Shown here piece after piece: positions 4,707 through 51,717 of a stretch of 64,000 bases of DNA. Every line of letters starts with the position of its first letter. Within the stretch, counting starts at the first letter, position 1. The position numbers and the translations under genes are program-made. Source of the DNA: Candidatus Nezhaarchaeota archaeon. Its GTDB lineage: Archaea > Thermoproteota > Methanomethylicia > Nezhaarchaeales > WYZ-LMO8. Under the pieces are notes generated by a model. That model ran no database searches, was not told the origin of the DNA, and worked only from the letters and a program-made list of their open reading frames with translations. The stretch covers positions 11,399-75,398 of the forward strand of contig JASFYF010000001.1 of NCBI GenBank assembly GCA_030055465.1, written 5' to 3'.

Positions 4707-5218
4707 AGCTTGTCCTCCTCTACAATCCTCCATAGATCAGGTCTTCGCTCTACTAGTTCTTGCATGCATGCAAAGATTTCAAGTACCGTCACCCAATCAC
4801 TGAGGGAGATGCCATTGGAGTGTCTTACCCTTACTTTCGGATCGCTTAAAGCCCAGATAACTCTATGCTTGCCCAACACGAGTTCCTTGAAAAGGAATAT
4901 TGGGAGGGCTACTTCGAGTATGGGGTTTTTAGCAGGCCTCATTTCAACTTTGAACACTCCCTCCTCGCTCAAGCTAATGGTGTAGACGCTCCTACCTTCA
5001 ACATCCACCTGTATGAGGTCTCTCCCGATTAATATCGAAGAGGGATACCCCCGAGCTCTTGACCAGCCTGTCGGATCGAAGGCTAAGTTCGGCGGAGGAT
5101 ACGGACCCGGCCCCGGATAGGGACAAGGCCCCCCGCAGAAAGTCCTGAACGGTTTAAGGCGCCTCTTGAGCTCCTGATCATCGTTTAAGTAGTTCTCTAG
5201 TTCACGCCAAAAGGTCAT
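4703..5218 (-). CDS. SCP2-like small protein, first gene of flavoprotein operon 1
   Basis: The frame is open to 5320, but an ATG at 5218 has GAGGATT upstream and lies about 38 bases from a clear TATA box, and alignment with the paralogue at 18671 starts here; this gives a 171-residue protein. It has an N-terminal helix, a Pro-rich GGPCPYPGPGPYPPP segment, a GYPSSIL motif, then about 105 residues whose order (beta strands, LFKELVLG, WALSDPKVRV, SLSDWVTVLEI) resembles the SCP2 sterol-carrier fold, a hydrophobic-ligand binding domain. The SCP2 assignment is my inference, not a certain match. Placed first in the operon and retained in module 2, it may present substrate to, or act as a subunit of, the flavoprotein complex. 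Confidence 0.6.
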   Translation of the reverse strand: MTFWRELENYLNDDQELKRRLKPFRTFCGGPCPYPGPGPYPPPNLAFDPTGWSRARGYPSSILIGRDLIQVDVEGRSVYTISLSEEGVFKVEMRPAKNPILEVALPIFLFKELVLGKHRVIWALSDPKVRVRHSNGISLSDWVTVLEIFACMQELVERRPDLWRIVEEDKL

Positions 5219-5251
5219 ACAATCCTCGTTTATAGATTTATTCATATATTT

Positions 5252-5259
5252 TATATAAA
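5252..5259 (-). promoter_or_regulatory. Archaeal TATA box for flavoprotein operon 1
   Basis: TTTATATA on the minus strand, centred about 38 bases before the ATG at 5218. With the usual 25-27 base spacing, transcription would start near 5230, leaving a leader of about 12 bases that contains the GAGG site. Confidence 0.6.
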
Positions 5260-5328
5260 AGTTTCGCAAATAATTGTCAATAAAATTAAAATTCACATAA
5301 TTGTCGCAATCAATAATCAAACAAAAGA

Positions 5329-15976: not shown

Positions 15977-15986
15977 AACTCTTCAC

Positions 15987-17210
15987 CTACAAACCTAAAG
16001 CCTTTGCCAACAGCTCCATGACGTCATAAGTCTTCATGTTCAATCCGAGCACGCCCGCTGTCTCTAGGAAGTTGTGTTTGCAGAATGGACATATAGATGC
16101 GATTACGTTGGCTCCCGTGCTTTTTGCCTCTTCGAGCCTCATTGAGGCCACTTGCAAAGCGTAGTCTTTGAATTCAGCTCGCACTCCTCCACCGTAACCG
16201 CAGCAGAACGAGTTCAGCCTATTCCTAGGCATTTCAGCGAGATCAATGCCTATGGCCCTCAATATTTCCCTTGGAGGCTCGAACATTCGGAATAACCTTA
16301 AGTGGCAGGGATCATGGTATGTGCTCTTCTCTATAGGCCTCTTCAACTTTATTTTGCCCTTTCCGGCCAGTTCTTTTATTAGAGGTGCGAGCAGCTGCGT
16401 AACGTGAATTACTTCGAGCGGCAGCTTCAATCCGTAGCGCGGAGCCTCTCTAAACGTCTTGTAGCAGCCTGCGCATGATACTATAAGCTTCTTAGCTTTC
16501 ATCTTGCGTAAAACCTCGATGTTATGGGCTAACGTCTCCACACCGCCTTTTACTTGTCCAGTCCTGAAGAGCGGGCTTCCGCAACACCATTCTTCTCCGT
16601 CCATGACAGTAAACGGTATCTCTAAGTGCTCTAGGACTTTGACTGTGGCTTGGGCTATCTCCATGCGCCTGTAAGAGGTTGTGCACCCAACAAAGTAGAC
16701 AACCCCGGACTCTATCAATGACACATCTCGCGGAGCGAAGCCGGAAGGGAGCCACGCAAAGCGGTTTTGGTGCGGCTCACCATATGGATTGTGGTTTACC
16801 TGTACGCTCTCCGCAAACTTTTTATGAGCTGGTAGAGGTCCTTGACCTACTTCAACCGCGTACTCTCTGAGCTTTTCAATAGCCTTCAAAGGGTAACCCC
16901 TACCCGAGAACATGCACCACGCTTCGCATGCCCCACATATTGTACAAGTGTAAATTATGTGCCTAACCCTATCAGACCATTTTACCTCTCCTTCTAGGAG
17001 GGCACGTATCAGCTCATTTCTGCCGCTGGCGTAGTAGGCCTCAAACTTGAACACCTCTCCCGAGGGACACTGATAGTGAAACCTGTGGTCAACGGTGTCG
17101 GGCAAGTACACGTGTTGGCAGTACTTGCATTTAACGCAATGAGTCCAGACCTCTTCATAGTAGTCTTCCAACGAATACCTAGTAACCGGCCATATGTAGT
17201 CTTGAGACAT
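15987..17210 (-). CDS. CCG-domain Fe-S oxidoreductase (GlcF/HdrD-like), module 2
   Basis: 407 residues with the same plan as the module 1 protein: CVKCKYC, then CPS 16 residues after the third Cys; second cluster CTICGACEAWC; CCGSPL and CCGYGG in the C-terminal part, with CAGC and CPFC ends. Here the second cluster keeps the usual fourth Cys (AWC), and the later position that is Cys in module 1 is Gly. It would carry electrons from the FAD subunits to ETF, a quinone/thiol reductase or another acceptor. Located between the two FAD genes with gaps of 10 and 13 bases. Confidence 0.88.
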   Translation of the reverse strand: MSQDYIWPVTRYSLEDYYEEVWTHCVKCKYCQHVYLPDTVDHRFHYQCPSGEVFKFEAYYASGRNELIRALLEGEVKWSDRVRHIIYTCTICGACEAWCMFSGRGYPLKAIEKLREYAVEVGQGPLPAHKKFAESVQVNHNPYGEPHQNRFAWLPSGFAPRDVSLIESGVVYFVGCTTSYRRMEIAQATVKVLEHLEIPFTVMDGEEWCCGSPLFRTGQVKGGVETLAHNIEVLRKMKAKKLIVSCAGCYKTFREAPRYGLKLPLEVIHVTQLLAPLIKELAGKGKIKLKRPIEKSTYHDPCHLRLFRMFEPPREILRAIGIDLAEMPRNRLNSFCCGYGGGVRAEFKDYALQVASMRLEEAKSTGANVIASICPFCKHNFLETAGVLGLNMKTYDVMELLAKALGL

Positions 17211-17223
17211 GAAATGTTACCTC

Positions 17224-18666
17224 CTACCAGAGCATGAGCTTACCGGGATTCATGATGTTGTTTGGATCAAAAGACTTCTTCACCTTCCTTAGGATGCGGT
17301 GCCACCTCTCCGCTCTCTGGTAAACCGCTGAAGCCCACAACGGGTACGGTTTATCGAAGTGAGCATTCATCTCAACAAGCCTGTTCCCCGCTTCAACGTA
17401 TAATTCTCTGACTCTTTTGGTGTCTTCAGGGTCTTCAGGATCTCTATGAAAGCTGAACTCGCAGTGCAGTGGCCCTGCCTTTATCGGTACTATTGTGAAG
17501 CCCACATCTTCTCTGGAGTAGCCGTGCTTCTCAGCCAGCCTGAGCACCTCAGCGAGGAAAATTGGTACGCGCTTCTGAATGGTAATGAAGGGGATCGTGT
17601 TTCTAGCCCCCTTGTACCTCGAGGTTTTTTCCCATCCTCCAGGCTCTTCAACCTCTTGAAGTATCCTTTCAGGTGCATTCTCAAGCCCCGGCACATAAGG
17701 CTCAACTTTCATGTTTAGCTCGAGAGCCAGATCCTTTAGATCTGCCTCCTGATAATCAACTTCATCCTTTGAGCCCCTGAGCACATGCACTACGTACCAC
17801 GGAGCTAACTGAGCTCTTACGTCTTCAAACTCTTCAGGATCCTTCGACATCAACAAAGCCAGATCGAAGCTGTTCAATATGAGCAGCTCTTCGCCTGTTT
17901 CAAGACGCCTGATTCTATGCATGGCCCTCAGCGCATCATCCAACTTCTCAAACGGCATGAACAGGACTCTATTTACCTCTGGGACGTCCTTAAGCTTAAG
18001 GTGTCCCGCCACGACAATGCCCAAGGTACCTTGAGATGCATGCCAAAACTTCGACAAGAAGAGAAGAGGACCCTCGCCCGGCTCGTAGGGATCTCTGGCA
18101 CCTTCAATACCCCACATGCCGCTTCTTAAAACACCACAGGTTCGAGGCACCACCGCTGCAATAGTCATCACAAGCTCCGTTTCATACCTTGGCCAAGCGT
18201 AGAAGGGAACATGCTCTAGGGCAGTTATGAGGGCCGAAGCAGAGGCTGGGTGCCCCACAGGCATTAACGCTCTAAACCCGCGCTTCTTTGCCTCTTTTTG
18301 CAGGACAGAGAACGTCAGACCAGGTTCAACCAATGCAACGCGGGCTCTGGTATTGACCTCTAAAAGCCTGTTAAGCCTGCTTACGTCCACGACCACTGCT
18401 GGAACCGATGGAACGGCGGCCCCCTGATTGTTTTTGCCCGTAGAGTAAGGAACGAGCGGCACCAGGTATCTGTTGGCAAACAACATTATCTCTTGCACCT
18501 CTTCCAAGCTACCCGGCTTTACTACGCAGATCGGCATTTTTGGGGAAACAAAGCTGTTGTCCTTTGAGTACTTTTCAAGGTCCTTGGGGTCTGTCAAGAC
18601 GTGCTTCGACCCTACAATGGCACTCATATTTTCCTCTATCACACTCTTAGATGCAGCCATAATCAT
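17224..18666 (-). CDS. VAO/PCMH-superfamily FAD-dependent oxidoreductase, subunit B of module 2
   Basis: 480 residues; paralogue of 3270-4706. PYSTG turn near 75, ASQGTLGIVV strand near 213, and the C-terminal FDPNNIMNPGKL signature. Start at the ATG at 18666, with a GGAGGGG about 12 bases upstream; an ATG two codons later is equally possible. It follows the SCP2-like gene by four bases. Same GlcD/GlcE-like pairing with subunit A as in module 1. Confidence 0.87.
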   Translation of the reverse strand: MIMAASKSVIEENMSAIVGSKHVLTDPKDLEKYSKDNSFVSPKMPICVVKPGSLEEVQEIMLFANRYLVPLVPYSTGKNNQGAAVPSVPAVVVDVSRLNRLLEVNTRARVALVEPGLTFSVLQKEAKKRGFRALMPVGHPASASALITALEHVPFYAWPRYETELVMTIAAVVPRTCGVLRSGMWGIEGARDPYEPGEGPLLFLSKFWHASQGTLGIVVAGHLKLKDVPEVNRVLFMPFEKLDDALRAMHRIRRLETGEELLILNSFDLALLMSKDPEEFEDVRAQLAPWYVVHVLRGSKDEVDYQEADLKDLALELNMKVEPYVPGLENAPERILQEVEEPGGWEKTSRYKGARNTIPFITIQKRVPIFLAEVLRLAEKHGYSREDVGFTIVPIKAGPLHCEFSFHRDPEDPEDTKRVRELYVEAGNRLVEMNAHFDKPYPLWASAVYQRAERWHRILRKVKKSFDPNNIMNPGKLMLW

Positions 18667-18670
18667 GGCG

Positions 18671-19222
18671 CTACAACCCCTCCACTAGGTTCCACAATGC
18701 AGGGTCGCGATCTACAGCTTCTTGTGCGACCACGAGAACCTCAAGTATTGTTATCCAATCGGAGAGCCCTATGCCCTCTCTCCACATCAATTTAACGCGT
18801 TCGTCAGCCAAAGCCCATACGACCCTATACTTGGTTAGAAGCATGTCTTTGAAGAGGTCCAGCGGCATCTCAATGTAAAGGCAGGGATTTTCAGCTTTTC
18901 CATCTCTGATCGTGAACACGCTATTCCTCAGCGAGACAACCCACGAAAGTTTCTCTGGAACCACTATCTGAATGAGATCGTTCTCGTGAAGTATAGTCGA
19001 TGGGTACCCCTTCTTTTCGGTCCAACTACTTGGATCCCAAGGGCCGTTGTATATTGGTCTGGGGTAGGGGCCTTCCCCTGGATAGGGAACGGGCCCTCCA
19101 TGCCATTCTGGAAATCCGCCCAATCTTCTCTTAAGCTCAAGGTCTTTGTTCAGCAGTTCTTCCCACTTCTCTCTTATTGAAAGATGCCGAGACAATTCAT
19201 GGCATCCCTTAATATTGCGCAT
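18671..19222 (-). CDS. SCP2-like small protein, first gene of flavoprotein operon 2
   Basis: Up to 183 residues from the ATG at 19222; a TTG at 19195 with AAGGGATG upstream fits the promoter spacing better and would give 174. It shares with the 4703 gene the ELKRRL helix, a GGPVPYPGEGPYPRP segment, GYPSTIL and the C-terminal block LFKDMLL, WALADERVKL, GLSDWITILEV. The strand/helix order resembles the SCP2 hydrophobic-ligand fold (inference). Conservation as first gene in two operons shows that it belongs to the flavoprotein system. Confidence 0.6.
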   Translation of the reverse strand: MRNIKGCHELSRHLSIREKWEELLNKDLELKRRLGGFPEWHGGPVPYPGEGPYPRPIYNGPWDPSSWTEKKGYPSTILHENDLIQIVVPEKLSWVVSLRNSVFTIRDGKAENPCLYIEMPLDLFKDMLLTKYRVVWALADERVKLMWREGIGLSDWITILEVLVVAQEAVDRDPALWNLVEGL

Positions 19223-19227
19223 CAAGT

Positions 19228-19237: not shown

Positions 19238-19498
19238 TATTGTCTAATATATCTTTGTAGCGATCACCGTTTCGATTCTCAATAACAGTATGATTTTGAA
19301 GCAAGCTTCTCTTATCCCCATGAGCATGGTTATATACTGCTAGCTCCCTGTTGCTTACCTTAGCGCTGACACAACCTACACCTGTTAATTCCTCACAAAA
19401 CCCCGCCGATTAATGTAATTTGCACTTTCACTTTGACATCGTGTCTAGGACTTTCAACGGTTACCGACGGAGGACCCCCAGCAAGGGAGGTGCGCGGT

Positions 19499-20863
19499 TC
19501 ATTTAGCCCTTGCCCTCCTTATCTTGCCCCTCCCCAGGGAGGCGAAGATCCCAATGAAGCATAAGGCTGCGAAGAGGTTGAAGGCGGTCGACATGCTGTC
19601 AATGAACTTTCCGAAGTACTCCGGGGTTATCGCGGTCCTCCCAATCATTGCTGAGATTATCAACATGACCAGCGCCATGCTCATGGTCTGGCCGATGAGC
19701 CGCATCGTCGCAACAGTCGCGGAGGCCACGCCCAGGAAGCGCCTTTCAACGGAGCTCATTATTGCGGTGGTGTTTGGGGAGCTGAACAGAGCTATTCCGA
19801 AGCCGAGAAGCACAAGGTAGATCACCGCGCTCTGGAGGGGCGTCTCGGCCCTCACCGTTGAGAAGAGCAGGAGGCTTATCGTGGTCACGGCCATCCCCAA
19901 GGAGGCAACAATCCTCGGCTCGATCCTATCGGAGATCCAGCCGGCCACCGGGGCAAATAAGGCCATGATTGCCGGCTGCGAGACCAGGATGAGGCCCGCA
20001 GTTGAGGCTTCCAGCCCCTTGATGTGCTGGAGGTAGAGGCTCATGAGGAAGCCGACGGCGAACGTCGCCGCGTAGTTCAGCAGGGCGGCGAGGCTTGAAA
20101 GCGAGAAGGCGGGGTTCCCCAGCAGCAGCTTCACCTCGAAGACTGGGTGTTTAACCCTGCCCTCGAGTAGGATGAAGGCTACCGCGAGGGCGGCCCCCAC
20201 TATTACGAGCGGGATTGAGGTCTCGGAGAACCCGTAGATGAGCGAGAAGAGCGCAACAGCGAATAGCGCGGAGCCCGCAACGTCGAACTTCTCCCCCCTC
20301 GCCTCAGCCCACTCCCCCTTAAGGTAGAGGGCGGCCACGGCCAGGGCGAAGAAGCTAAGCGCCCCGTTGACGAGGAACAGGCTCCTCCAGCCGAGGCTCT
20401 GGGTCAGGAGTCCCCCACCCATAGGCCCCAAGCTCAGGCCGGCGTAAACGGCTCCTGTGTTAATCCCAATCGCCTTCCCCCTTTCCTGGGGTGGGAAGGT
20501 CGAGGTGATGATGGCCACCGCCGTGGCGAATATCATTGCCCCTCCAATCCCCTGAATAACCCTGAAGGCCATCAGCATACCTATTGATGATGCGAGGGCC
20601 GACAGGACGGAGCAGGCCCCGAACACCACCAAGCCTATGACGAAGATCCTCCTCCTACCAGCAGTATCCGCAAGCCTCCCAAAAGGGATTGAAAACATGC
20701 CGGCCGCGAGGAGGTACGAGGTGGCAATCCACCCAAGCGTTACAGCGTCAACCTGAAAATCCCTTCCAATGGAGGGGAGGGCGACGTTTATTGAGGAGGC
20801 CATGAACGGAGTTATGAAGGATGCAACGCACGAGGCGAGCAGGGCAGCTCTCCTTAAATCCAT
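19499..20863 (-). CDS. MFS drug/metabolite exporter, DHA2 (EmrB/QacA) family
   Basis: 454 residues, about 12-14 membrane segments. The N-terminus shows the DHA2 pattern SSINVALPSIGRDF, WIATSYLLAAG, the GRLADTAGRRR loop and RVIQGIGGA motif C region, plus the GLSLGPMGGG stretch of helix five. It should export drugs or organic compounds by proton antiport; such pumps often accompany aromatic-acid pathways as efflux valves (inference). Base composition is markedly more GC-rich than the preceding 19 kb, and the gene marks the left boundary of the GC-rich UbiD/TRAP region, so recent acquisition is possible. Confidence 0.87.
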   Translation of the reverse strand: MDLRRAALLASCVASFITPFMASSINVALPSIGRDFQVDAVTLGWIATSYLLAAGMFSIPFGRLADTAGRRRIFVIGLVVFGACSVLSALASSIGMLMAFRVIQGIGGAMIFATAVAIITSTFPPQERGKAIGINTGAVYAGLSLGPMGGGLLTQSLGWRSLFLVNGALSFFALAVAALYLKGEWAEARGEKFDVAGSALFAVALFSLIYGFSETSIPLVIVGAALAVAFILLEGRVKHPVFEVKLLLGNPAFSLSSLAALLNYAATFAVGFLMSLYLQHIKGLEASTAGLILVSQPAIMALFAPVAGWISDRIEPRIVASLGMAVTTISLLLFSTVRAETPLQSAVIYLVLLGFGIALFSSPNTTAIMSSVERRFLGVASATVATMRLIGQTMSMALVMLIISAMIGRTAITPEYFGKFIDSMSTAFNLFAALCFIGIFASLGRGKIRRARAK

Positions 20864-21138
20864 GAGGATGAGTTGATGTGGATGAATTAAAAGTTTTCCT
20901 CTCGCAACACCCCAAATCCATCCTAGGAGGCGTAAAAACGATGAGGCCCCGCGCCGAGGCTTTAAAACTTCATGGATTTAAAGGTGCTTGGCGAATGCAA
21001 GCGGGCAAGCGCAAGTTTTGCCGTTCAAGTTCATGGGAGGCCTCAGCGTTAATCAATTCGCTTATGAGGCCATTGAAGGATACATCGGGGGAAAGGTTAA
21101 ATCCAGTTCACCATTAATGGTTTTGTTGAGGTCTTTCT

Positions 21139-22119
21139 ATGAAGATAGATTTCCACAACCACTTCTACCCTAAAGAGTACTTCGATGAAGTCGAGAAGCT
21201 GAAGGGGGACTTGAATGTTGCCAGGGACTCCCTTGGAAGGGTGGTCATAGAGGAGAGGGGGATGAGGGTTGTAACCGTGACTGAGCCCATGTACAGGCCC
21301 GAGCTCAGGATAAAGGACATGGACGAGGCCGGGGTGGACGTCCAGGTGCTTTCACTTTCAATTCCAAACGTGTACTTCGCCAGCCCGGAGGACAGCGTCA
21401 GGCTTGCGGAGCGGACGAACAACGCCATAGCGTCTGTGGTGGAGAAGCACCGCGACAGGTTCGTGGGCTTCGCAAGCGTGCCGCTGCTCAAACCCGATGC
21501 CGCCGTGGATGAGGCTAGGAGGGCCGTGAAGGAGTTGGGAATGAAGGGCTTCATCATAGGCTCGAACGTAAAGGGGAGGACCCTCGACGACCCCATGTTC
21601 ATGCCGTTCTACGAGGCGGCCTCAAGGCTTGACGTCCCAATACTCATACATCCCATGCCTCCCCTATCCCCTAAGGGAATGGAGGAGTACAGGCTGGCCC
21701 CTATCATAGGCTTCGAGTTCGACGTGTGCCTAGCCGTCGCGAGGCTCATATTCAGCGGGGTTCTGGAGAAGTACCCGTTAAAGATAATAGTCTCCCACCT
21801 CGGAGCTGGGCTTCTATTCCTATTCGAGAGGATAGAGTACGGCTACCGAGCCTACCCGGAGTGCAGGGAGAAGATTACGAAGCCTCCAAGCTTCTACCTG
21901 AAAAACCTCTACTACGATACGGTCGCCTTCCACAAGCCGGCTTTGGTTTGCGCCTACATGACCGTTGGATCCAAGCACATGGTGCTCGGAAGCGACTACC
22001 CCCACGTCATTGGAGACGCTAGGAGGGCCATCCAAAGCATCGAGGAGCTCGACATACCGGAAGAGGAAAAGGAAGATATATTCAGCGGGAACGGCAGGAA
22101 GCTGTTGAAGGCAGCGTGA
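21139..22119 (+). CDS. Amidohydrolase 2 (ACMSD-family) decarboxylase/hydrolase
   Basis: 326 residues, a metal-dependent TIM barrel of the ACMSD/amidohydro_2 family. Visible ligands are DFHNHFYP (HxH) at the N-terminus, LIHPMP near 175, SHLGAG near 220 and GSDYPH near 290. Characterised relatives decarboxylate aromatic acids without oxygen (2-amino-3-carboxymuconate semialdehyde, gamma-resorcylate, 5-carboxyvanillate). The full metal set here suggests an active enzyme. It stands just upstream of UbiD and UbiX and next to a second family member at 24530, which together suggest aromatic carboxylate breakdown; a hydrolase acting on a ring-opened product is an alternative. Confidence 0.82.
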   Translation: MKIDFHNHFYPKEYFDEVEKLKGDLNVARDSLGRVVIEERGMRVVTVTEPMYRPELRIKDMDEAGVDVQVLSLSIPNVYFASPEDSVRLAERTNNAIASVVEKHRDRFVGFASVPLLKPDAAVDEARRAVKELGMKGFIIGSNVKGRTLDDPMFMPFYEAASRLDVPILIHPMPPLSPKGMEEYRLAPIIGFEFDVCLAVARLIFSGVLEKYPLKIIVSHLGAGLLFLFERIEYGYRAYPECREKITKPPSFYLKNLYYDTVAFHKPALVCAYMTVGSKHMVLGSDYPHVIGDARRAIQSIEELDIPEEEKEDIFSGNGRKLLKAA

Positions 22120-22328
22120 AAGCCGTAAACCCCCTTATTCTTTATTGTTTAGCCTTCCACTTGCAACGATGTGAAGGCCTCAACGTAAGGGCTTAGCTGA
22201 ATGCGCCAGCGTCGACGAGAGCCACAACCCGTTTCGGTGGAGATCGCGGGGGCTATCGACCTCTCTCTTTGACTAGTTCAATTTACTAATTGGCTTACTC
22301 GTAAGTATTACTGATGTTTCGGCATAAA

Positions 22329-22336
22329 TTATAAAA
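22329..22336 (+). promoter_or_regulatory. TATA box for the ubiD-ubiX transcript
   Basis: TTATAAAA, 43 bases before the TTG start of ubiD, with AGTGGAGGT as ribosome binding site in the leader. Confidence 0.5.
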
Positions 22337-22375
22337 GTTTAATCATTACATAACGCTAAAAGTGGAGGTATACTC

Positions 22376-23824
22376 TTGATATTTAACGACCTGAGGGAGT
22401 ACCTGGACAGGCTGCTAAACCTCAACGAGCTCATCGAGGTGAAAGGAGCGGACTGGAACCTCGAAATAGGCTGCATCACGGAGATGATGGCTGAACGCAA
22501 GGGGCCTGGGCTTCTGTTCGACGAAATAAAGGGCTATCCCAAGGGTTACAGGCTCGCCTCAAACCTCTTAACAGTAACGAGGAGGAGGCAGAAGATAGCG
22601 CTGGGAATAAGGGAGGACACGCCGGACATAAAAGTCATCGAGGAGTGGAAGTGGAAGTACCTTAACTTCAAGCCTGTGCCGCCGCGGGAGGTCTCAGATG
22701 GCCCAGTCATGGAGAACGTGATGGAAGGCGACAAAGTTAACATGTTCAAGTTCCCAACGCCCAAGTGGCACGAGCTCGACGGCGGGCGCTACATAGGGAC
22801 TGGCGACGTGGTGATAACGGCGGACCCGGACACCGGCTGGGTAAACATGGGAACCTACAGGGTCATGGTGCACGACGAGAAGACCCTAAGCTTCTTCGTC
22901 GCACCTGGACACCACGCCGCGATAATGCGCGAGAAGTACTGGTCGAAGGGGAAGAGCTGCCCGGTCGTCATGTGCTTCGGGCAGGAGCCGCTGCTATGGA
23001 CGTGCGCCACGCTGCCCCTCCCGTGGGGTTGGTCTGAGCTTGAATTCGCAGGCTACGTCAGGGGGGAGCCCGTTCCAGTAATTAAAGGGAAGCATACCGG
23101 GCTTCCCATCCCAGCCACGGCTGAAATAGCAATTGAAGGCGAGGCGCCGCCCCCATCAGTTGAAAGCCGCAACGAGGGACCCTTCGGCGAGTGGACGGGC
23201 TACTACGCCTCGCACGTGAGGGCTGAGCCGGTCGTAAAGGTGAAGGCCGTTTACCACAGGAGCAACCCGATAATCGCCGCCGAGCTCACGTGCAAGGCCA
23301 ACCCAGCGTGGCATCCAATCCCAGTGCACTCCGCCCCGATAGTCTGGATGGCGCTGGAGAGGGCTGGGATAGAGGGCGTTAAAGGCGTGTGGACTCATGG
23401 AAGGGGAAACCTCACCATGATAGTGATATCGCTCCAGCAGAGGTATCCAGGCCACGCGAAGCAGGCTGGCGTTGTCGCCAGCGCGGTGTTCAGGGGGCTG
23501 GCGCTCGCGGGCAAGTGGATAATAGTGGTAGACGAGGACGTTGACCCCTCAAACATCGACGAGGTCTTCTGGGCCTTAGACACGAGGTGCAACCCCGAAA
23601 GCGACATAGAGGTCATCAGCGGATGCCCCACCACGCCGCTTGAACCAACGATTCCCCCATGGAAGAGGAGCATGGGCGACTACACCTTTGGCAGGGCAAT
23701 AATAATGGCCTGCAAGCCCTACCCCTGGCGCGACCAGTTTCCACCAGTCACCGAGGCAAGCCCAGAGCTGAAGAAGAAGATGCTGGAGAAGTGGAGCAAC
23801 ATATTCCCCAAACAGCTGAAGTAA
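22376..23824 (+). CDS. ubiD: UbiD-family prenylated-FMN-dependent decarboxylase
   Basis: 482 residues from a TTG at 22376 preceded by GGAGGT. The family pattern is clear: [10 protein letters not shown] near 140, [10 protein letters not shown], the [17 protein letters not shown] core, the acidic [10 protein letters not shown] near 252-261 and [11 protein letters not shown], which contain the catalytic glutamates and prFMN contacts. UbiD enzymes reversibly decarboxylate aromatic or alpha,beta-unsaturated acids, including 4-hydroxybenzoate, protocatechuate and vanillate. The paired UbiX supplies the cofactor. In archaea, UbiD can also act in the modified mevalonate route as anhydromevalonate phosphate decarboxylase, so that housekeeping role must be excluded; the linkage to ACMSD-type enzymes and a TRAP importer favours catabolism. 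Confidence 0.9.
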
Positions 23825-23849
23825 CTGCAGCTCACGTCGTTCACGCATC

Positions 23850-24413
23850 GTGAGGGCTATGAGAGTTGTAGTTGCAATCACCGGCGCGAGCGGAGCAGTG
23901 TACGGGGTTAGGCTACTGGAGGCGCTTGGCGGGAGTGGGGTTGAAACCCACCTTGTGCTCAGCGGGTGGGCCGAGAAAACCCTCCAGCTGGAGTTGGGGT
24001 TAACCCTAGAGGAAGTGAAGCGCCTAGCAACCTTCACGCACAGCTGCTCAGACCTCTCGGCGCCCATAGCCAGCGGCTCCTGCAGGTTCGACGGGATGGT
24101 GATAGCCCCATGCAGCATGAAGACCCTGTCAGCCATAGCCCATGGCTACGCGGACAACCTGATCACCAGGGCGGCGGACGTGGCCTTGAAGGAGAGGAGA
24201 AGACTAATACTGGTGCCTAGGGAAACTCCCCTAAGCGCGGTCCACCTGAGAAACATGCTGGCCCTGGCGGAGGCGGGGGCGGTGATACTTCCGCCGGCGC
24301 CGGCCTTCTACATCAAGCCGAGGACCGTAGACGACCTAGTCAACTATGTCGTAGGCAAAATCCTCGACCACCTGGGAGTGGAGCACAACCTCTACAAGAG
24401 GTGGGGGGAGTGA
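23850..24413 (+). CDS. ubiX: UbiX flavin prenyltransferase
   Basis: 187 residues from a GTG at 23850, or 184 from the ATG at 23859 ([12 protein letters not shown]); GTGAGGG lies directly before the ATG, rather close for a binding site. The flavodoxin-like fold shows [40 protein letters not shown] and [16 protein letters not shown]. It joins dimethylallyl phosphate to FMN to make the prFMN cofactor of UbiD. It lies 25 bases after ubiD in one transcript. Confidence 0.93.
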
Positions 24414-24529
24414 CCCCCTAAGGGCTCTATTTAAAGCAGGGGCAAGTAGAAACCCCACGCAATGGTGCCTACCTAAGGTCGCGGAGCAGCCTTCCACGAA
24501 GGTCCAAAAGGAAGGGATAACGGCAAACT

Positions 24530-25477
24530 TCACTTCAGCTTTAGGAGCCTCTGGGCGTTTCCGCCAAGTATATTCTCTTTGTGGTCTTCAGGTATATTCA
24601 TGCTTTTTATGCACTTCAGGTTATCTCTGACGAATGCCTCTCCATACTCCCTCCCAAACGGGTAGTCAGTTCCAAAGAGAAGGCGATCGGGGCCGAAGAA
24701 GGCGTATCCACAATAGTACGGGTCGAGGTTTATCCCGTCCAACGCGGTGTCGCCGTATATCTGCTTCCAGTACTCCGTTATGGGTCTACGCAGCTTCTCT
24801 TTGAGTCGGAACTTCTCAAGCTTATCGTAAACCCTGTTCACAAAGAATGGCAGCATGGCTCCACAGTGATGGGCAACGATCTTAAGGTTGGGAAACTCGT
24901 CCAGAACTCCGCCGAAGATGAGCCTCCACATCGCCTGCGTGGTGTCGAAAGGCCAGCCGAATATGTGCAGGAACATCCACCCTTTCCTCATATCTATCAG
25001 AGGGTAGTAAAGCCAGTCCACTGGATGAAGGAAGACAGGGACGTCGTGCTTCGACACCCTCTCAAAGAAGGGCCGGAATTGTGGGTAGTCAAGGCCTTCA
25101 CCATCCACGTTCGTGGGTATTGTGACGCCCTTTAAGCCCAAGTCCATGATAGCCCTGTCAAGCTCCTCGAGGGCGGAGTCCACGTCTAAGAGAGAAACTA
25201 TGGCTAACCCAGCAAACCTCTCCGGGTGTTTAGCGCAGAACTCGGCTATAGCGTTGTTGGAGGCTTCGCACACCTTTTTTGCAGTTTCAGGGTCTAAACC
25301 GGTTAAGACCGGCGCTGTCTGGGATAGCACCTGAACGTCGACTCCGTACCTATCCATGATTTTTATCCTCTCCTTCGGGTCGTTGCTCTCAGGCGGATGG
25401 GGATACTTCCTGCCGTAACCAACCATCCTATTGACCTCTTGGGTTACCAGGTGGGAGGAAAAATCGATAACAACCAT
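24530..25477 (-). CDS. Amidohydrolase 2 (ACMSD-family) enzyme with altered first metal site
   Basis: 315 residues, same family as the gene at 21139, but the N-terminal HxH is SxH (IDFSSHL). Other ligands remain: FLHPVD near 165, AHHCGAM near 218 and GTDYPF near 280. In gamma-resorcylate decarboxylases the first His is replaced by Glu, so ligand change at this position is tolerated in the family; Ser is less usual and may weaken metal binding or leave the site with three protein ligands. Opposite strand to ubiX, convergent, 116 bases apart. Substrate unknown, aromatic or muconate-type acid inferred. Confidence 0.8.
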   Translation of the reverse strand: MVVIDFSSHLVTQEVNRMVGYGRKYPHPPESNDPKERIKIMDRYGVDVQVLSQTAPVLTGLDPETAKKVCEASNNAIAEFCAKHPERFAGLAIVSLLDVDSALEELDRAIMDLGLKGVTIPTNVDGEGLDYPQFRPFFERVSKHDVPVFLHPVDWLYYPLIDMRKGWMFLHIFGWPFDTTQAMWRLIFGGVLDEFPNLKIVAHHCGAMLPFFVNRVYDKLEKFRLKEKLRRPITEYWKQIYGDTALDGINLDPYYCGYAFFGPDRLLFGTDYPFGREYGEAFVRDNLKCIKSMNIPEDHKENILGGNAQRLLKLK

Positions 25478-26005
25478 TATATTCTCACTTCACTAAAATA
25501 TCAAAACATCGGTGAAAATATAAAAACTTCACATGAAGAAGGGCCCAAAGAAGTTCCCGGCAAAGAGGAGCTGGAGAAGGAGTTAAAGGCTTTGGAAGGA
25601 AAAGTGAAGTCCACACAAAGCCTCTCCAAACCCTCTTAGGGCGCACTCCATAGGCCTATCCGATTTTTAACTAGGCCCATACTTCAATGGTTATCAGGCC
25701 TCCCCACTCATAATTTTAGGATAGGCCTCTACAAGGTGAGGCCCTTTAAAAATCGTTTAACTGTGGTTTAGGCGGCTATCCTAGGTTTCCATGGTACCCA
25801 AATCATCAGGCCCACGCTCGCTGAAGCCCAGACCTCTGGCAGGCTTGAATAGGCTAGCTAACCTGAAAAAGTTACGAGCTTAAACCCTTGGAGGCTATAT
25901 TTCACTATAACAATGATCAAGCTCTTCGAGTAGAGGTCAGTTTTCATCGCTATGAAAAGGTTAAAAGCAGCTTAAAATAAAATGATAGCTTAGTGTGGTG
26001 GAAAA
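25478..26005. other. 528-bp regulatory-looking intergenic region with interleaved inverted repeats
   Basis: Divergent promoters of the amidohydrolase and the TRAP receptor should lie here. AGGCCTATCC (25652-25661) pairs with GGATAGGCCT (25719-25728), and CGATTTTTAA (25661-25670) pairs with TTAAAAATCG (25746-25755). The arms are interleaved, so only one hairpin or a pseudoknot can form at a time. No convincing protein. Confidence 0.5.
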
Positions 26006-27106
26006 GTGCCTTTAGGAAGGAATGTGGCTATAGCTTTGGCAGTAGTGGTAATAGTAGTTGCGGTTGGAGCCGTAGCCTTGTGGTACACCTCTCAACCTAC
26101 AACCCCAACTCAACCTACAACCCCAACTCAACCTACAACCCCAACTCAACCTACAACCCCAACTCAACCTACAACCCCAACTCAACCTACAACCCCAACT
26201 CAACCTACAACCCCAACTCAACCGGTCAAGCTGATAGTTGTAACTGGGCGCTCTGGCTCAGCTGCGTGGATCCAAGACTCAACGCTTGCGAAGATATGCG
26301 AGAGGTACAATGTTGGGCTCGAGGTAACGGTCACGGCGACGACTGGAAGCGTTGAAAACCTCAGGATGCTGGGCGAGGGCAAGGCCGACATAGGCATGGT
26401 TACCCTGGGATTCGCCTTGGATTGCTACTATGGACGCGGCACCTTCGCCAACGCCTCAAACCAGAGGATAAGGCTGCTCGCAGTTAGGCAGCTTAACTAC
26501 CTTCACATAGTGACGCTGGAGGAGACAGGCATAAAAAGCGTGCACGACTTAGTAGGCAAAACGGTGTCTGTCAGCACTCCGGGCGGATACAACTACCTTA
26601 AAGCCATGGCGCTGCTGAGGGCTCTAGGCTTGGAGGGCAAGGTGACGACCGACCCGATAGAATGGGATCAGGGCATCGACGCCCTTAGAGATAGAAGGAT
26701 AGATGCCGTCATATTCATGACTAGCGCCCCTCAACCTAAAGTGCAGGAGCTCTTCGCCCTTCCAGGCTTAAAGCCGAAGCTGATAGGCTTAAGCGACGAT
26801 GACATATCGAAGTTCATCAACGCGTATCCTGAGCACGTTGTCGTGGACATGCCGCCTACCCTTTACGGGCAGGGCTACCCAGTCCACACGATAGCCGAGC
26901 CAAGCACCTACGCGTGCACTGCCTCTCTACCTGAAGACGTGGCCTACAGGTTCGTCAAGGCGATATACGACCACTACCAAGAGATGGGGAGCGAATCGGT
27001 CAACTGGGCTGCGTGGACTCCCGACCTAGGCCCGATGGCTAAGGGCAAGGGAGTCCCATACCACGACGGAGCCGTGCGGTTCTACACCGAGAAAGGATTA
27101 TGGTGA
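26006..27106 (+). CDS. TAXI-family TRAP transporter solute-binding protein
   Basis: 366 residues from a GTG at 26006 with GGTGG upstream. The N-terminal hydrophobic segment (about 6-27) acts as signal/anchor, followed by seven (S/T)QPTTP repeats as a flexible linker, then the TAXI domain: VTGRSGSAAW, TGSVENLRMLGEGKADIGMV, VSVSTPGG and the EWDQGIDALRDRRIDAV region. It captures a substrate outside the cell and delivers it to the fused permease encoded 69 bases downstream. TAXI receptors bind carboxylates such as glutamate or other organic acids; the ligand here may be the substrate of the neighbouring decarboxylases (inference). Confidence 0.92.
   Translation: MPLGRNVAIALAVVVIVVAVGAVALWYTSQPTTPTQPTTPTQPTTPTQPTTPTQPTTPTQPTTPTQPTTPTQPVKLIVVTGRSGSAAWIQDSTLAKICERYNVGLEVTVTATTGSVENLRMLGEGKADIGMVTLGFALDCYYGRGTFANASNQRIRLLAVRQLNYLHIVTLEETGIKSVHDLVGKTVSVSTPGGYNYLKAMALLRALGLEGKVTTDPIEWDQGIDALRDRRIDAVIFMTSAPQPKVQELFALPGLKPKLIGLSDDDISKFINAYPEHVVVDMPPTLYGQGYPVHTIAEPSTYACTASLPEDVAYRFVKAIYDHYQEMGSESVNWAAWTPDLGPMAKGKGVPYHDGAVRFYTEKGLW
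26090..26215 (+). repeat. Seven 18-bp tandem repeats, coding
   Basis: The unit ACT CAA CCT ACA ACC CCA is repeated seven times (the first begins TCT). It encodes the same TQPTTP hexapeptide as the repeats at 3-146, but with three different synonymous codons per unit. Confidence 0.95.
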
Positions 27107-27175
27107 AACCAGCCTAAAAGCCATTTAGAAACGCTTAAAAACATTCTTTCATACTCTTTTTTCTAACATAAAGTC

Positions 27176-29101
27176 TTGAGGCCTAGGGGCGTAGAGCTTT
27201 TGCAGCAAGCTGAATCTAGGAGTCGGAACATCAAGGAGCTGGCGATAACGATCGTAGGGAACATCCTCTGCCTCTACGTGTTGGCAACAACGCTCGTGCG
27301 CGTACCCATACTGCAGCACCGAGCCCTTTACCTGTTAATAGTACTAGCGCTGGTGTTCCTGCTGTACCCATCCTCTCGTAGGCGAGCCAGGTTAAGCTTG
27401 GGGGTAGACCTCACCCTCATAGCGCTAAGCTTGATCTCGGTGGGCTACGTGGCCCTCTATTACTCAGACCTGATAATGAGGTACTACAGTCCATCAGTGT
27501 TGGACATGGCCTTCGGCGTCATAACCATAATCCTAGTGCTTGAAGCCACTCGCAGAACCGTGGGCCTGCCGATGTGCATCGTAGCGCTGTTCTTCTTGGC
27601 ATACACGTTCTTCGGGAAGTACGTGCCAGGCTACTTCGGCCACCCCGGCTACCCCGTGGACATGGTGATAGGCTACATATACCAGACCATGGATGGACTC
27701 TTCGGAACCGTGTTGGGCGTGGCTGCAGCCGAGGTGGCCGTGTTAACGGTGTTCGGATCCCTCCTAAACGTGGGGGGAGGGGGACGCCTCTTCTCTGATG
27801 TGGGAAGGTCGCTGCTCGGAAAATCCGTTGGAGGAGGCTTAAAGGGAGCGAACATAGCTGCCTACCTTCTTGGAATGGTCGCCGGAAGCTCGGGGGCGAC
27901 GGCGATCATGACTTACTCGATGATGAAGGACTCCATCGACGAGGACATGAAGAAGGTCGGCAGGGACTCCGTGGCCGGCTACATAGCTGCCATAGGCACC
28001 GGCGCATTCATATCGCCCCCAGTCATGGGTGCGGTGGCATTCGTAATGGCATACGTAGCCGGCATACCGTACGTCGAGATATGCAAGATGGCGATCCTCA
28101 TAACGCTGCTGTACTACTTAACCCTATTCGTGATGATAGACATAACCGCCAGGAGGTCAGGGCTCTCAGGGCTCCCCCCAGAGAAGATCCCTAAGCTCGG
28201 CGACGCCTTGAAGACCCGAGGCCACATGTTCCTCCCAATAGTTCTACTCGTGGTGCTGCTGAGCCAAGGGTTCACTCCCGTAGGCTCAGCCTTCTGGGCC
28301 TGCGTCTCAACGGTGGCTCTAAGCATGGTGAGGAAGGAGACCAGGATGATGCCCAAGGCAATTGTGATGGCCTTCAAAGATGCGGCGAAAGCCATCATCA
28401 CCATAGCCACGGTCTGCGCCTGCGCCGGCATAGTCGTAGCGCCGATAATGCTCACGGGCCTGGGGATTAAGCTGTCAATCGCCATAGGGCACGCCGCAGA
28501 GGTCCACCTCGTCCTTGCGCTCCTGATAGCAATGGTAACGGCAATAATACTCGGAATGGGGCTGCCGCCTACACCGGTCTACCTGCTCGTCGCGGTCTTG
28601 ATAGCTCCAGCCCTAATACGCCTGGGAGTGCCAGCAGCCATAGCGCACTTCTTCGTGTTTTACTATGCCTGCTTCTCGGTTTTAACGCCTCCAGTAGCCA
28701 GCACAAGCTACGCCATGGCCGGAATACTGAAGGCAAACCCTTTCAAGAGTGGATGGATATCAATGAAGATGATCCTGCCCATACTCATAATACCCATAAT
28801 GCTTCCCTACGCCCCAGAGCTGCTGCTCATTGGTTCCTGGGAGTCGATAGCCCTCCGCTTCGCGGTGTGGGTGGCCGCAATATTCGCATTAGCCATAGGG
28901 ATCGAGGGGTACACCCCTCTATGGGGCAGCGCAGTACCCACATGGTTGAGGGCTCTCTTCTTCGTGGATGCTGCCCTGCTGATATTCCCGCAAATGATGC
29001 TGGACGCGGTCGGCATAGTGCTCTTCGCTGTTTTGATGGTGGTTTCCAAGAAGGCAAAGCGCGAATCCCTGAAGGCATCAGGAAAACCCCAGAAAACCTA
29101 G
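27176..29101 (+). CDS. TRAP transporter fused 4TM/12TM permease
   Basis: 641 residues, about 16 hydrophobic segments. The first 150 residues correspond to the DctQ-like small subunit fused to the DctM-like large subunit, the usual form for TAXI systems. Signatures are the glycine-rich GGGGRLFSDVGRSLLG, GGLKGANIAAYLLGMVAGSSGATA, GAFISPPVMGAVAF and GMGLPPTPVYLLVAV. It imports the TAXI ligand using a sodium or proton gradient. The start is a TTG at 27176 without an obvious ribosome site; a TTG eight codons later is possible. Confidence 0.92.
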   Translation: MRPRGVELLQQAESRSRNIKELAITIVGNILCLYVLATTLVRVPILQHRALYLLIVLALVFLLYPSSRRRARLSLGVDLTLIALSLISVGYVALYYSDLIMRYYSPSVLDMAFGVITIILVLEATRRTVGLPMCIVALFFLAYTFFGKYVPGYFGHPGYPVDMVIGYIYQTMDGLFGTVLGVAAAEVAVLTVFGSLLNVGGGGRLFSDVGRSLLGKSVGGGLKGANIAAYLLGMVAGSSGATAIMTYSMMKDSIDEDMKKVGRDSVAGYIAAIGTGAFISPPVMGAVAFVMAYVAGIPYVEICKMAILITLLYYLTLFVMIDITARRSGLSGLPPEKIPKLGDALKTRGHMFLPIVLLVVLLSQGFTPVGSAFWACVSTVALSMVRKETRMMPKAIVMAFKDAAKAIITIATVCACAGIVVAPIMLTGLGIKLSIAIGHAAEVHLVLALLIAMVTAIILGMGLPPTPVYLLVAVLIAPALIRLGVPAAIAHFFVFYYACFSVLTPPVASTSYAMAGILKANPFKSGWISMKMILPILIIPIMLPYAPELLLIGSWESIALRFAVWVAAIFALAIGIEGYTPLWGSAVPTWLRALFFVDAALLIFPQMMLDAVGIVLFAVLMVVSKKAKRESLKASGKPQKT

Positions 29102-29333
29102 ATGCTGGCAACTCATCCTCGATGAAGAGGGACAAGCGAGGGCTTTGAGGTTAGAGCCTTCTCATAAGTGTTTCGACGTGGACCTCCAAGGTGGAGGCCG
29201 GCTCCAAACGACGCGTGAATGCACCTCCACTCGTTCTGGGGCTTGATAAGATTTATCCTCGCGAGTCATGCTATAGGCGATAGTAGATGTAGCTTGGATG
29301 GGATGCGGGGGCCGGTGGACCCCTCAAGAGGGG

Positions 29334-30266
29334 TTAGTCCAGCACCTCCGCCCTCCTAAACGTGTACCACGCAGCTGCGAGGAGTACGGCTGAGTAGGCC
29401 GACGCAACTAGGATTGACCTCGCCAGCACTGCTGAGAGGGGCTCCGAGTACAGCTCAACAACCTGCATTCTGTTGGCAACCTTGAAGAAGGTGACGTTCA
29501 ACGATGGGTTAAGCGCGTATCTCACCAGGTTAGCCGCGATGCCGTCCGTCCCAGTGGATACCGCCGCTCCAAGGGTGTACGGCGTTCCTCCACCAGCACC
29601 GGCAAGGTAGCCTGTGGCCCCGCCCCCCGGAAGGTAGCTGAGGATCCACGCCTGGTCTGAGGCCATGGATATTATAGGGCTGCCAACCGCTAGCGCCATG
29701 AAAACGCCGAAGGATCCCAGCGCGGCGAGCAGGGAGCTTTTGGAGATGGAGCCTACGGCGAGCACAATGGACATCCACATAAGGGTGCTTAGGGTCGCTC
29801 CGAGCAGCGACAGCGGTAGGAGGTGCAGGTTCTCCTGGGGGCCGTAGACTATGGTGCCGCCGACGGCCATGTAGGCCAGCAGAAGCGCGTAGGCCGAGCC
29901 CAAAGTTATGAGGGCCGCGGTGAGCTTGCCCAGGAAGATCGTTGTCCTCGACACCGGCTTCGTAAGCAGCGTGACCGCCGTGCCGCCCTCAAACTCGCCC
30001 GATATGCTGTTCATGGCTACGGCCACGGCGAAGAGGAACATGCCTAAGCCGCCCACGCCGATGCCGGTGTCGACAACGTAGTTCGGGTTCCGCGCGAGCT
30101 CCAGCCCGGTGACGTTCGACAGGACGACCGGCAGGACGAGCGCCAGGGTGGCCAGGAGCAACGCGAGCACAAGCACGCCTATGAGCTTCTTCTTCCTGAT
30201 GTTCCAGAGGAGCTCGTACCTCACCACCGCCCAGAAACGCGGCGCCCAGCCTCCCCCAGCCATCAA
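29334..30266 (-). CDS. ABC-2 type transporter permease
   Basis: 310 residues with six hydrophobic segments. The N-terminus RYELLWNIRKKKLIG, then a first helix, then an extracellular loop, then the FEGGTAVTLLTKPVSRTTIFLGKL coupling region, is typical of ABC-2 exporters. Its start overlaps the ATPase stop by four bases. Together they form an efflux or membrane-protein export system of unknown substrate. GC-rich like its neighbours. Confidence 0.87.
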   Translation of the reverse strand: MMAGGGWAPRFWAVVRYELLWNIRKKKLIGVLVLALLLATLALVLPVVLSNVTGLELARNPNYVVDTGIGVGGLGMFLFAVAVAMNSISGEFEGGTAVTLLTKPVSRTTIFLGKLTAALITLGSAYALLLAYMAVGGTIVYGPQENLHLLPLSLLGATLSTLMWMSIVLAVGSISKSSLLAALGSFGVFMALAVGSPIISMASDQAWILSYLPGGGATGYLAGAGGGTPYTLGAAVSTGTDGIAANLVRYALNPSLNVTFFKVANRMQVVELYSEPLSAVLARSILVASAYSAVLLAAAWYTFRRAEVLD

Positions 30267-31228
30267 GCTCCCCCCTCCACGGGCTTGGACACGAGCTGCA
30301 GGAACACGTCTTCAAGGGTCCGGCCCTTCCACCCCATGGCTACGATGACCCCGCCGCTCCCCGTTATCGCCCTTGAGATGTGCGCCCTCACGTCGTCCCG
30401 GGTCTTCAGCTCAACCGTCAGAATCCTCCCGGACTGCTCAACGCGCGACACGAAGGGCAGCGACCTAAGGGACTCAGCAGCCGCCTCGCAGGGCTCCGCA
30501 AGCTCCACCTCAACTACGCCTCCACCCATAAGCATGCCGCGGATGTTTTGAAGCGTGTCGGAGGCTAAGGCCACCCCCCTATGAATTACCGTCACGTGGC
30601 TGCAAACTTGTTCAACCTCGAAGAGCAGGTGGGATGAGAGGAAAACGGTTCTGCCCTCCTTAGCCATCCCCTTCATGAGGTTCCTCACCTCAACCATGCT
30701 GACGGGATCCAAGCCTAGGCTCGGCTCATCCAGTATGACCAGCTCGGGGTCTCCGAGGAGCGCCTGTGCGATCCCCAACCGCTGCTGCATCCCCTTGCTG
30801 TACTTGCCTATTAGGTCACCCTCTCTCCCTTTAAGCCCAACCACCTCTAGAAGCCTCGGGATCTCCTCCCTCCGCTGCTGCTCGCTCATCCCGTACATCC
30901 TACCGTAGATGTCCAAGAGCTCACGCCCTTTAAGGTGCCTGGGAAACCTTGGAAGCTCAGGCATGTAGCCGACCTTTAAGCGTGTCTCGGGTGCGTCCCA
31001 ACGCACTTCGCGTCCGAGAACTCTCACAACACCTTCATCAGCCCTCAGCAAGCCCACCAAGATCTTTATAGTCGTCGTCTTACCCGCCCCGTTCGGCCCC
31101 AGAAACCCGTGGACGCTGTTTCTCCTCACCTCAAGGTTAAGCCCCTTCACGGCGGTTAACTGGCTGTACCTCTTCGTCAACCCAACGGTCTCCACGGCCA
31201 AATCCACGGTTGAAGCCCCTTCTACCAT
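30263..31228 (-). CDS. ABC transporter ATP-binding protein (ABC-2 exporter)
   Basis: 321 residues. Walker A GPNGAGKTT near 44-52, Q-loop YMPELP, signature YSKGMQQRLGIAQAL near 143-157, Walker B VILDEPSLGLD near 164-174 and H-loop SSH near 197. The C-terminal 90 residues form the extra domain seen in CcmA/DrrA-type ATPases. Drives the permease encoded downstream. Confidence 0.93.
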   Translation of the reverse strand: MVEGASTVDLAVETVGLTKRYSQLTAVKGLNLEVRRNSVHGFLGPNGAGKTTTIKILVGLLRADEGVVRVLGREVRWDAPETRLKVGYMPELPRFPRHLKGRELLDIYGRMYGMSEQQRREEIPRLLEVVGLKGREGDLIGKYSKGMQQRLGIAQALLGDPELVILDEPSLGLDPVSMVEVRNLMKGMAKEGRTVFLSSHLLFEVEQVCSHVTVIHRGVALASDTLQNIRGMLMGGGVVEVELAEPCEAAAESLRSLPFVSRVEQSGRILTVELKTRDDVRAHISRAITGSGGVIVAMGWKGRTLEDVFLQLVSKPVEGGA

Positions 31229-31575
31229 ACCAGGGGCGACGGCTCACATATTTTTTTAGTCTGCGGCTGGCGCAGAGAGGTGCGCGTGCTGGCTAGCACC
31301 ACCCAAGCCCAGCTGGGGTCGCCGGATCCCGAAAAGGAAGCCAGCTCAACAGCGTATGGTATCGCGCTTTACGCTCTCCTATCCTAAGCTCGGGTTTCAA
31401 CTTGAAGGGTATTGTCACCGCATGTTGTCGAGCAGCTTAAGGCTAAGGCCCGCCCCTCAAGGCATTAACAGCCGGCGAAATCAGTTTTAACCGCTCTAAC
31501 ACTCACCACCTTCCGTAGGCCTCCCATTGGGGTTCAGCCTTGGCGGCTGGTTACGCGTCGGCGCCATCCATCATA
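31229..31575. other. 347-bp intergenic stretch
   Basis: No supported gene. It separates the ABC operon promoter from the decayed TnpB gene; an IS605-type right end or guide-RNA segment could be here, but no hairpin I can trust was seen. Confidence 0.35.
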
Positions 31576-32300
31576 TTAAGTTTCGCTGGAAACCATCATT
31601 CGCCTCCCCACCGAATGGAATTGATCGGGTTTGACGCTCTCCACGGCTAAAGCCGGGGGGTTCTTGCTTCTAAGGTTTTCATCGGCTCTGTTGTTCATTA
31701 TTCTTTTAGGCTCCCACATCATCCCATTCCACCTTAGAAGCAAGGGGTGTGCCGCCACCCCGTTAACCTCGCCTCCATGGAGGCGAGCTATATTCAACAC
31801 GCCCACGGCGTCCCTGCGGGCTTCTAATCCACAGCTTAAGCATTTGAGAAGCCTTCCCTTTGAGGCTGTGTTCCTTGAGCGGCCATTGGGCATACACTTG
31901 ACGTTTCGCGTTCGCTCTCTTCTTTAACCTCTATCCCGTGTTCCTCTGCTCTCTCTTTAAACCTCCTAACTATGTGGTCGAAGCTCCAAAAGTTGTTTAT
32001 CATGGAGTTTGCCTTACAATTGTGGCTGTTTCCTCTTATGCCCTTAAGCTTTCCAAGCACTATCTTTGATATGCCCAGCGCATATGCGTCCTCAACGATG
32101 GCTTTTATCATGGCGTTTACGGCATGCCTGAAGCGCCTCCGCCTAAGCGCGTAAAGCCTTCTTGAGGTTTTAGCCCTGTTCACCCTAGCTAACCTACTTT
32201 GTTCTTTTGCTATCTTTCTCGTCCAGTACCACCAATCCGCTAATAACGTCCTTCCAGAGTAGTCTATTGGTTGTCTTAAACCTTCAAACCGTTGTGGGAT
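31576..32300 (-). pseudogene. tnpB: Decayed TnpB (IS200/IS605-family OrfB) gene
   Basis: Two frames carry TnpB sequence. The first (from about 32300) shows IAKEQSRLARVNRAKTSRRL, FRHAVNAMI, KANSMINNFWSFDHIVRRFKE and ERETSS; after this the frame shifts near 31880, and the second frame supplies the zinc-finger half (KCLSCGLEARRDAVGVLNIA) and tail. The N-terminal third is missing: an in-frame stop lies at 32301 and no start codon follows. In the RuvC-I position, GKLKG has Lys where active TnpB proteins have Asp (often GDLKG). Truncation, frameshift and active-site loss all say it is dead. No TnpA is nearby. Confidence 0.85.
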
Positions 32301-32443
32301 TCACGAGAAGGAAGCCGCACCAGCCGTGTCGCCAATGGGCGAAGGGATGGCCCTCCAAGAAGCCCCTTGCAGGCAAGGGTAGCTGATCGAATTCCCCGCA
32401 AACCGGCGGGACTCAAAGAAAAAAAATGATAGAGTTAAAGAAT

Positions 32444-32782
32444 TTATAGGGCCTCCTTCCCCCTCTCACCGGTTCTTATTCTAACCACCTCTTCCACCGG
32501 AACTACGAATATCTTTCCGTCCCCTACGTAGCCTGTCTTGGCTTTCTGTGCTATAACGTCCACAACCGCGTCGAGGTTCTCATCGCTTACCAGAACCTCA
32601 ATCTTCAGTTTAGGCAGCATATCCAAGCCGTACTCATGGCCCCTTGCACTCCACTTCACGCCCTCCTGTCTTCCCTTGCCCCTTACTTCGTAGATCGTAA
32701 GTCCCTTGATCCCTATGCTCCTGAGCCCCTGCTTTACCTCCTCAAGCTTATCCGGCCTTATTATGGCGCATATCATCTTCAT
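32444..32782 (-). CDS. glnK: Nitrogen regulatory protein P-II (GlnK)
   Basis: 112 residues from the ATG at 32782 (MKMICAIIRP), with GGGTGA a few bases upstream; the frame is open to 32809. The body matches P-II: IRPDKLEEVK, the T-loop GKGRQEG...RGHEYG, and the KTGYVGDGKIFV ATP-binding B-loop. The T-loop lacks the Tyr that is uridylylated in enteric GlnB/GlnK, as is common in archaea, so regulation would be by direct ATP/ADP and 2-oxoglutarate binding. Located four bases after amt, it should block the ammonium channel when nitrogen is plentiful. Confidence 0.95.
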   Translation of the reverse strand: MKMICAIIRPDKLEEVKQGLRSIGIKGLTIYEVRGKGRQEGVKWSARGHEYGLDMLPKLKIEVLVSDENLDAVVDVIAQKAKTGYVGDGKIFVVPVEEVVRIRTGERGKEAL

Positions 32783-32786
32783 CCGG

Positions 32787-50408: not shown

Positions 50409-50418
50409 GTGATTAGGT

Positions 50419-51714: not shown

Positions 51715-51717
51715 TGG

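Follow-up and report, generated by a model that had tools for sequence, protein, structure and literature searches.

The window, i.e., the whole stretch of 64,000 nucleotides analysed here (G000:C1:11399-75398), belongs to a single-contig archaeal genome of 1.02 Mb that is 67% complete. Positions are those of the window unless the contig or locus is named. Seven genes lie between 19499 and 29101: an MFS exporter of the DHA2/EmrB type (19499-20863, minus strand; MFS_1, 2.6e-55; efflux_EmrB, 195.6 bits against a cut-off of 230), the Amidohydro_2 protein AH1 (21139-22119, plus; PF04909, 2e-43), a UbiD (22376-23824, plus; TIGR00148, 278 bits), a UbiX flavin prenyltransferase (23850-24413, plus, with ATG at 23859 as the probable start codon; TIGR00421, 271.9 bits, cut-off 108.9), a second Amidohydro_2 protein, AH2 (24530-25477, minus; PF04909, 8e-41), a TAXI-family TRAP substrate receptor (26006-27106, plus; TIGR02122, 170 bits, cut-off 84), and a fused TRAP permease (27176-29101, plus; TIGR02123, 470 bits, cut-off 321). 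An earlier note on this DNA had called a UbiD/UbiX pair, two enzymes of the ACMSD type, an efflux pump, and a TAXI-TRAP importer at these positions. The calls are correct: all seven genes are intact open reading frames and match their family profiles with E-values of about 1e-41 to 1e-140.

The seven genes are not one operon, as the exporter and AH2 lie on the minus strand. According to strand and spacing, there are at least five units, namely MFS (-), AH1 (+), UbiD-UbiX (+), AH2 (-), and TAXI-TRAP (+), and close spacing is confined to UbiD-UbiX (25 bp) and TAXI-TRAP (69 bp). AT-rich, TATA-like stretches, judged by eye, are located upstream of UbiD, AH2, and TAXI.

A DNA search with positions 19300-34000 as query against 40 genomes of the class revealed counterparts of UbiX, the exporter (in several class genomes and in G002, the latter with 65% over 1.3 kb), an ABC transporter (29887-31223), and a transposase remnant. 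For AH1, UbiD, AH2, TAXI, and TRAP, no gene-length counterpart was identified in these 40 genomes; a single match of 32 bp inside UbiD came from G113. UbiX falls among archaea of the same class (96/83), a group in which family f30 is nested, and the best UbiX matches come from its own order. In G002 and G005, UbiX stands among other genes, none of which matches the window block. UbiX and the exporter are native genes common to the class. Thus, the remaining five genes, contiguous except for UbiX, would be non-native ones that collected around a native ubiX.

The earlier note had described a GC-rich block and read it as one transferred catabolic cassette including efflux. The block is indeed GC-rich compared to its left flank (0.43-0.52), but its GC3 (0.60-0.77) equals that of the native UbiX, MFS, and ABC genes and of the hcp and aro genes to the right. 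Since the class-shared UbiX and MFS genes have the composition of UbiD and AH1, the compositional case for transfer fails: the block is not marked as foreign, and transfer of the block as a whole finds no support in GC3. The single cassette does not hold either, because the class has UbiX and MFS as native genes, no compositional sign points to recent transfer, and only UbiD, AH1, AH2, and TAXI-TRAP are without DNA counterparts in the 40 class genomes. Nor does the pump show a specific link to catabolism; the exporter is probably a bystander. A degraded IS605-type TnpB remnant is located near the block (31576-32183, minus strand), and related copies are numerous in some genomes of the class.

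In a maximum-likelihood tree of 66 sequences, which includes four anhydromevalonate-phosphate decarboxylases (AMPDs) of the family but leaves out the genome's own, the window UbiD is the sister of PhdA (PDB 7pda). Both share 43-45% identity over full length (449 bits), and together with a proteobacterial protein (L028) they form a group with support of 99/98 within a mainly bacterial clade. An AF2 model of the window UbiD (pLDDT 89) has 7pda as its top Foldseek match, and the Glu-Arg-Glu triad (R162, E267, E272) is kept, as are N157 and E221 of the prenylated FMN (prFMN) site. The structure library entry names 7pda a phenazine-1-carboxylic acid decarboxylase of Mycobacterium fortuitum; a literature search by this accession gave no result. 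These features support the view that the window UbiD is related to the (hetero)aromatic-acid decarboxylases of bacterial type. One of the closest known systems is PhdA/PhdB/PhdC of Mycolicibacterium fortuitum, where PhdB is the UbiX and ubiX is part of the same operon as phdA (PMC13040415), as UbiX adjoins UbiD here. It differs from the window in that the host here is archaeal, an importer and amidohydrolases are added, and no phdC-like gene was recognised alongside.

A substrate call is justified only to the level of a (hetero)aromatic or unsaturated acid. The window UbiD stays below every specific curated cut-off, i.e., those for VdcC (274 of 650 bits), PpcB (270 of 469), E. coli UbiD (128 of 788), and the menaquinone type (200 of 496), as well as PpcA, and was not assigned to any of these equivalogs. 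Phthaloyl-CoA decarboxylase was likewise dismissed: the Pcd structure in the PDB matches with only 52 bits, identity to the Pcd-type UbiDs of Aromatoleum aromaticum EbN1 is 25%, and the block contains neither a CoA transferase nor a CoA ligase. A common clade with the other archaeal copies of the phylum (families f27 and f35) was rejected (p 0.002), and hence, the window UbiD was not simply inherited along with those copies.

The two amidohydrolases had been described as ACMSD-type enzymes. Their membership in the Amidohydro_2 superfamily stands, which comprises ACMSD and the 5-carboxyvanillate and gamma-resorcylate decarboxylases; the best PDB match is ACMSD for AH1 (2.5e-50) and gamma-resorcylate decarboxylase for AH2 (5e-34). 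AH1 has all metal ligands (the HxH pair H6 and H8, H171, H220, and D286) and, at the position of ACMSD Arg47, the conserved R57, whereas AH2 carries Ser7 instead of the first metal-ligand His. The narrower label was not retained. At the positions of Trp191 and Arg243 (human numbering), which we take to be the substrate residues of ACMSD, AH1 has Pro and Tyr, and AH2 has His and a gap; consequently, both proteins are assigned to the ACMSD superfamily level only. AH2 falls into a clade of four (95/87), which includes an amidohydrolase encoded directly upstream of a UbiD of the same subfamily in an alphaproteobacterium (L048). The nearest relative found for AH1, with 49-51% identity, is encoded on a haloarchaeal plasmid, that of Halostella pelagica (L161, 12001-12957), and has no UbiD match within 12 kb.

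The receptor and the fused permease both exceed their curated cut-offs and constitute a TAXI-TRAP transporter. The receptor has an N-terminal membrane anchor and a Pro/Thr-rich linker, and it matches TAXI receptors of the PDB with 1.6e-23. A perfect 18-bp tandem repeat of 7.4 copies (26091-26223, plus strand) encodes the PTTPTQ linker, and its perfection suggests a recent expansion and length variability of this linker. Beside an aldehyde ferredoxin oxidoreductase (AOR) gene just left of the window, the genome has a second TAXI-TRAP (G000:C1:8328-11093; L111:6324-11093), with no UbiD.

Importers of this kind recur with the UbiD subfamily in unrelated lineages. In a member of the Dehalococcoidia (L034), the receptor and the fused permease of a TAXI-TRAP are followed on the same strand by two UbiDs of the subfamily, with 191, 33, and 24 bp between successive genes. 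On plasmid 2 of A. aromaticum EbN1, a UbiD with 41% identity to the window UbiD shares an island with a UbiX, a TAXI-TRAP, CoA transferases, and two more UbiDs. NMT1-type solute-binding proteins (family F4) also recur beside this UbiD subfamily, with 17 genes in eight loci; the linkage of UbiD and importer is given here as counts of examples, without a statistical test. In clusters such as the anaerobic phthalate island of EbN1, TAXI-TRAP takes up o-phthalate according to a review (PMC13040137). The EbN1 island resembles the window in combining a UbiD of the same subfamily, UbiX, and TAXI-TRAP, but it has CoA transferases and phthaloyl-CoA-decarboxylase-type UbiDs and no amidohydrolases in the stretch. 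As identity between the window TAXI and that of EbN1 is only 24%, the ligand is not transferable.

Taken together, we favour, with moderate confidence, a cluster for the uptake and decarboxylation of a cyclic carboxylic acid, either (hetero)aromatic or otherwise unsaturated; this cluster would have been assembled around the native ubiX within the present archaeal lineage. The TAXI receptor and the fused TRAP permease would import the acid, driven by an ion gradient; the native UbiX would make prFMN; and the PhdA-related UbiD, loaded with prFMN, would take off the ring carboxylate in a reversible reaction that needs neither oxygen nor CoA. The same or neighbouring acids may be acted on by AH1 and probably by AH2, which belong to the superfamily of non-oxidative decarboxylases and would depend on metals. 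The catabolic set for an aromatic or unsaturated acid that the earlier note had proposed thus survives in part: it is backed by the UbiD clade and the recurrence of TAXI-TRAP elsewhere, while the single cassette and the role of efflux fall away. Judged from sequence, breakdown of an aromatic acid is a credible function of the cluster, and two decarboxylation chemistries, by UbiD and by Amidohydro_2 proteins, are plausible. The opposite orientation of AH2 and MFS, the missing canonical metal ligand of AH2, the low identity to the EbN1 TAXI, and the lack of HGD-D and LigB ring-degradation genes in the recovered genome (67% complete) count against the cluster. No other locus with precisely these genes turned up in a single pattern scan of genome contigs or in phylum searches that sampled about 400 genomes.

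The orientation of the genes would also fit a loose neighbourhood, in which UbiD-UbiX acts by itself as a small decarboxylase unit, while the importer and the amidohydrolases serve unrelated substrates. We consider this unlikely, though it is the strongest of the alternatives. It agrees with separate units on both strands, with the native origin of UbiX and MFS, and with the second TAXI-TRAP of the genome, which stands beside the AOR gene without a UbiD; moreover, among the TAXI receptors that have been characterised, some are specific for glutamate (PMC11574862). Against it, L034 and EbN1 both combine TAXI-TRAP with this UbiD subfamily, an AH2-type gene directly precedes UbiD in L048, and the five non-native genes are interrupted by UbiX only.

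Improbable, to our judgement, is a UbiD that acts in detoxification, in biosynthesis, or as a carboxylase instead of in growth on an acid. UbiD reactions are reversible, the beta subunit of phenylphosphate carboxylase (PpcB) is among the better-scoring curated models, and a streptomycete relative stands beside NRPS-type genes. Neither a benzoyl-CoA-reductase-type HGD-D gene nor a LigB ring-cleavage gene was found in the recovered genome (67% complete), and the lack of ring-cleavage genes there fits this explanation as well. On the other hand, the window UbiD misses every specific curated cut-off, PpcB included, an acid importer is adjacent, and the block holds no phenylphosphate synthase or CoA ligase.

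Archaea are known to employ a UbiD in the mevalonate pathway, and AcnX and UbiD are the archaeal pair of phosphomevalonate dehydratase and anhydromevalonate-phosphate decarboxylase. The genome contains two UbiDs, and the other one (G000:C1:916409-917503) overlaps the genes for the large and swivel subunits of AcnX and stands in a gene order that is kept in the family member G002. All family members have a single UbiD, to which it shows 67-71% identity; on these sequence grounds, it is the AMPD of this genome. A mevalonate role of the window UbiD is practically excluded, as it is a different UbiD that overlaps the two AcnX subunit genes, identity between the window UbiD and the AMPDs of the family is only 24-30%, and a grouping of the window UbiD with these AMPDs is rejected by the AU test (p about 1e-15). 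Hence, the window UbiD, which the earlier note had proposed to place by phylogeny, lies with PhdA outside the mevalonate clade, and its genome encodes a second UbiD. It shares the UbiD fold family with the AMPD, but gene and clade are distinct.

Both UbiDs would depend on the same UbiX. No second UbiX was identified in the recovered genome by a PF02441 search, where the other match to the Flavoprotein family is CoaBC by sequence. As the mevalonate UbiD also needs prFMN, a single UbiX probably supplies this cofactor to both. Within the proposed uptake-and-decarboxylation cluster, a more specific pathway may be considered tentatively, which we regard as rather doubtful: a (poly)carboxylated heteroaromatic acid would be used anaerobically and lose its carboxylates by two unrelated chemistries, the prFMN-dependent UbiD and the metal-dependent Amidohydro_2 proteins, with one native UbiX serving the essential mevalonate UbiD and the acquired catabolic UbiD.

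To our knowledge, the use of aromatic acids is documented in few archaea, and the locus represents a testable candidate. Here, an archaeon carries a UbiD of the PhdA type beside the ubiX required for isoprenoid synthesis, and this UbiD is set cleanly apart from the mevalonate UbiD, which could mislead annotation. The recurrence of TAXI-TRAP with this UbiD subfamily would help substrate assignment for both.

To the left of the block, the window contains a four-gene module composed of an FAD oxidase, a CCG Fe-S protein, a further FAD oxidase, and a protein of about 190 aa without Pfam match. It occurs twice as paralogues (551-5320 and 14477-19225), with 37-47% identity for three subunits, and a partial third copy (49503-53316) lies beside EtfA/B. 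Among 398 genomes of the phylum, the small protein was seen again only in G313, where the module is accompanied by an ALDH and other genes; a single-sequence model of the 184-aa protein (pLDDT 35) is not usable. The best PDB matches of the module at 14477-19225 are of the VAO/PCMH type. A p-cresol-type oxidase feeding the decarboxylase was considered for it and rejected: the Tyr and Tyr-Arg positions, which bind phenolate in p-cresol-type oxidases, are not kept, and the module is also present in G313, a genome without any UbiD match at E <= 1e-50. Finally, an ALDH of the methylmalonate-semialdehyde type (11210-12716, minus strand) is split into two frames near 11751-11791, representing either a frameshifted gene or an assembly error.
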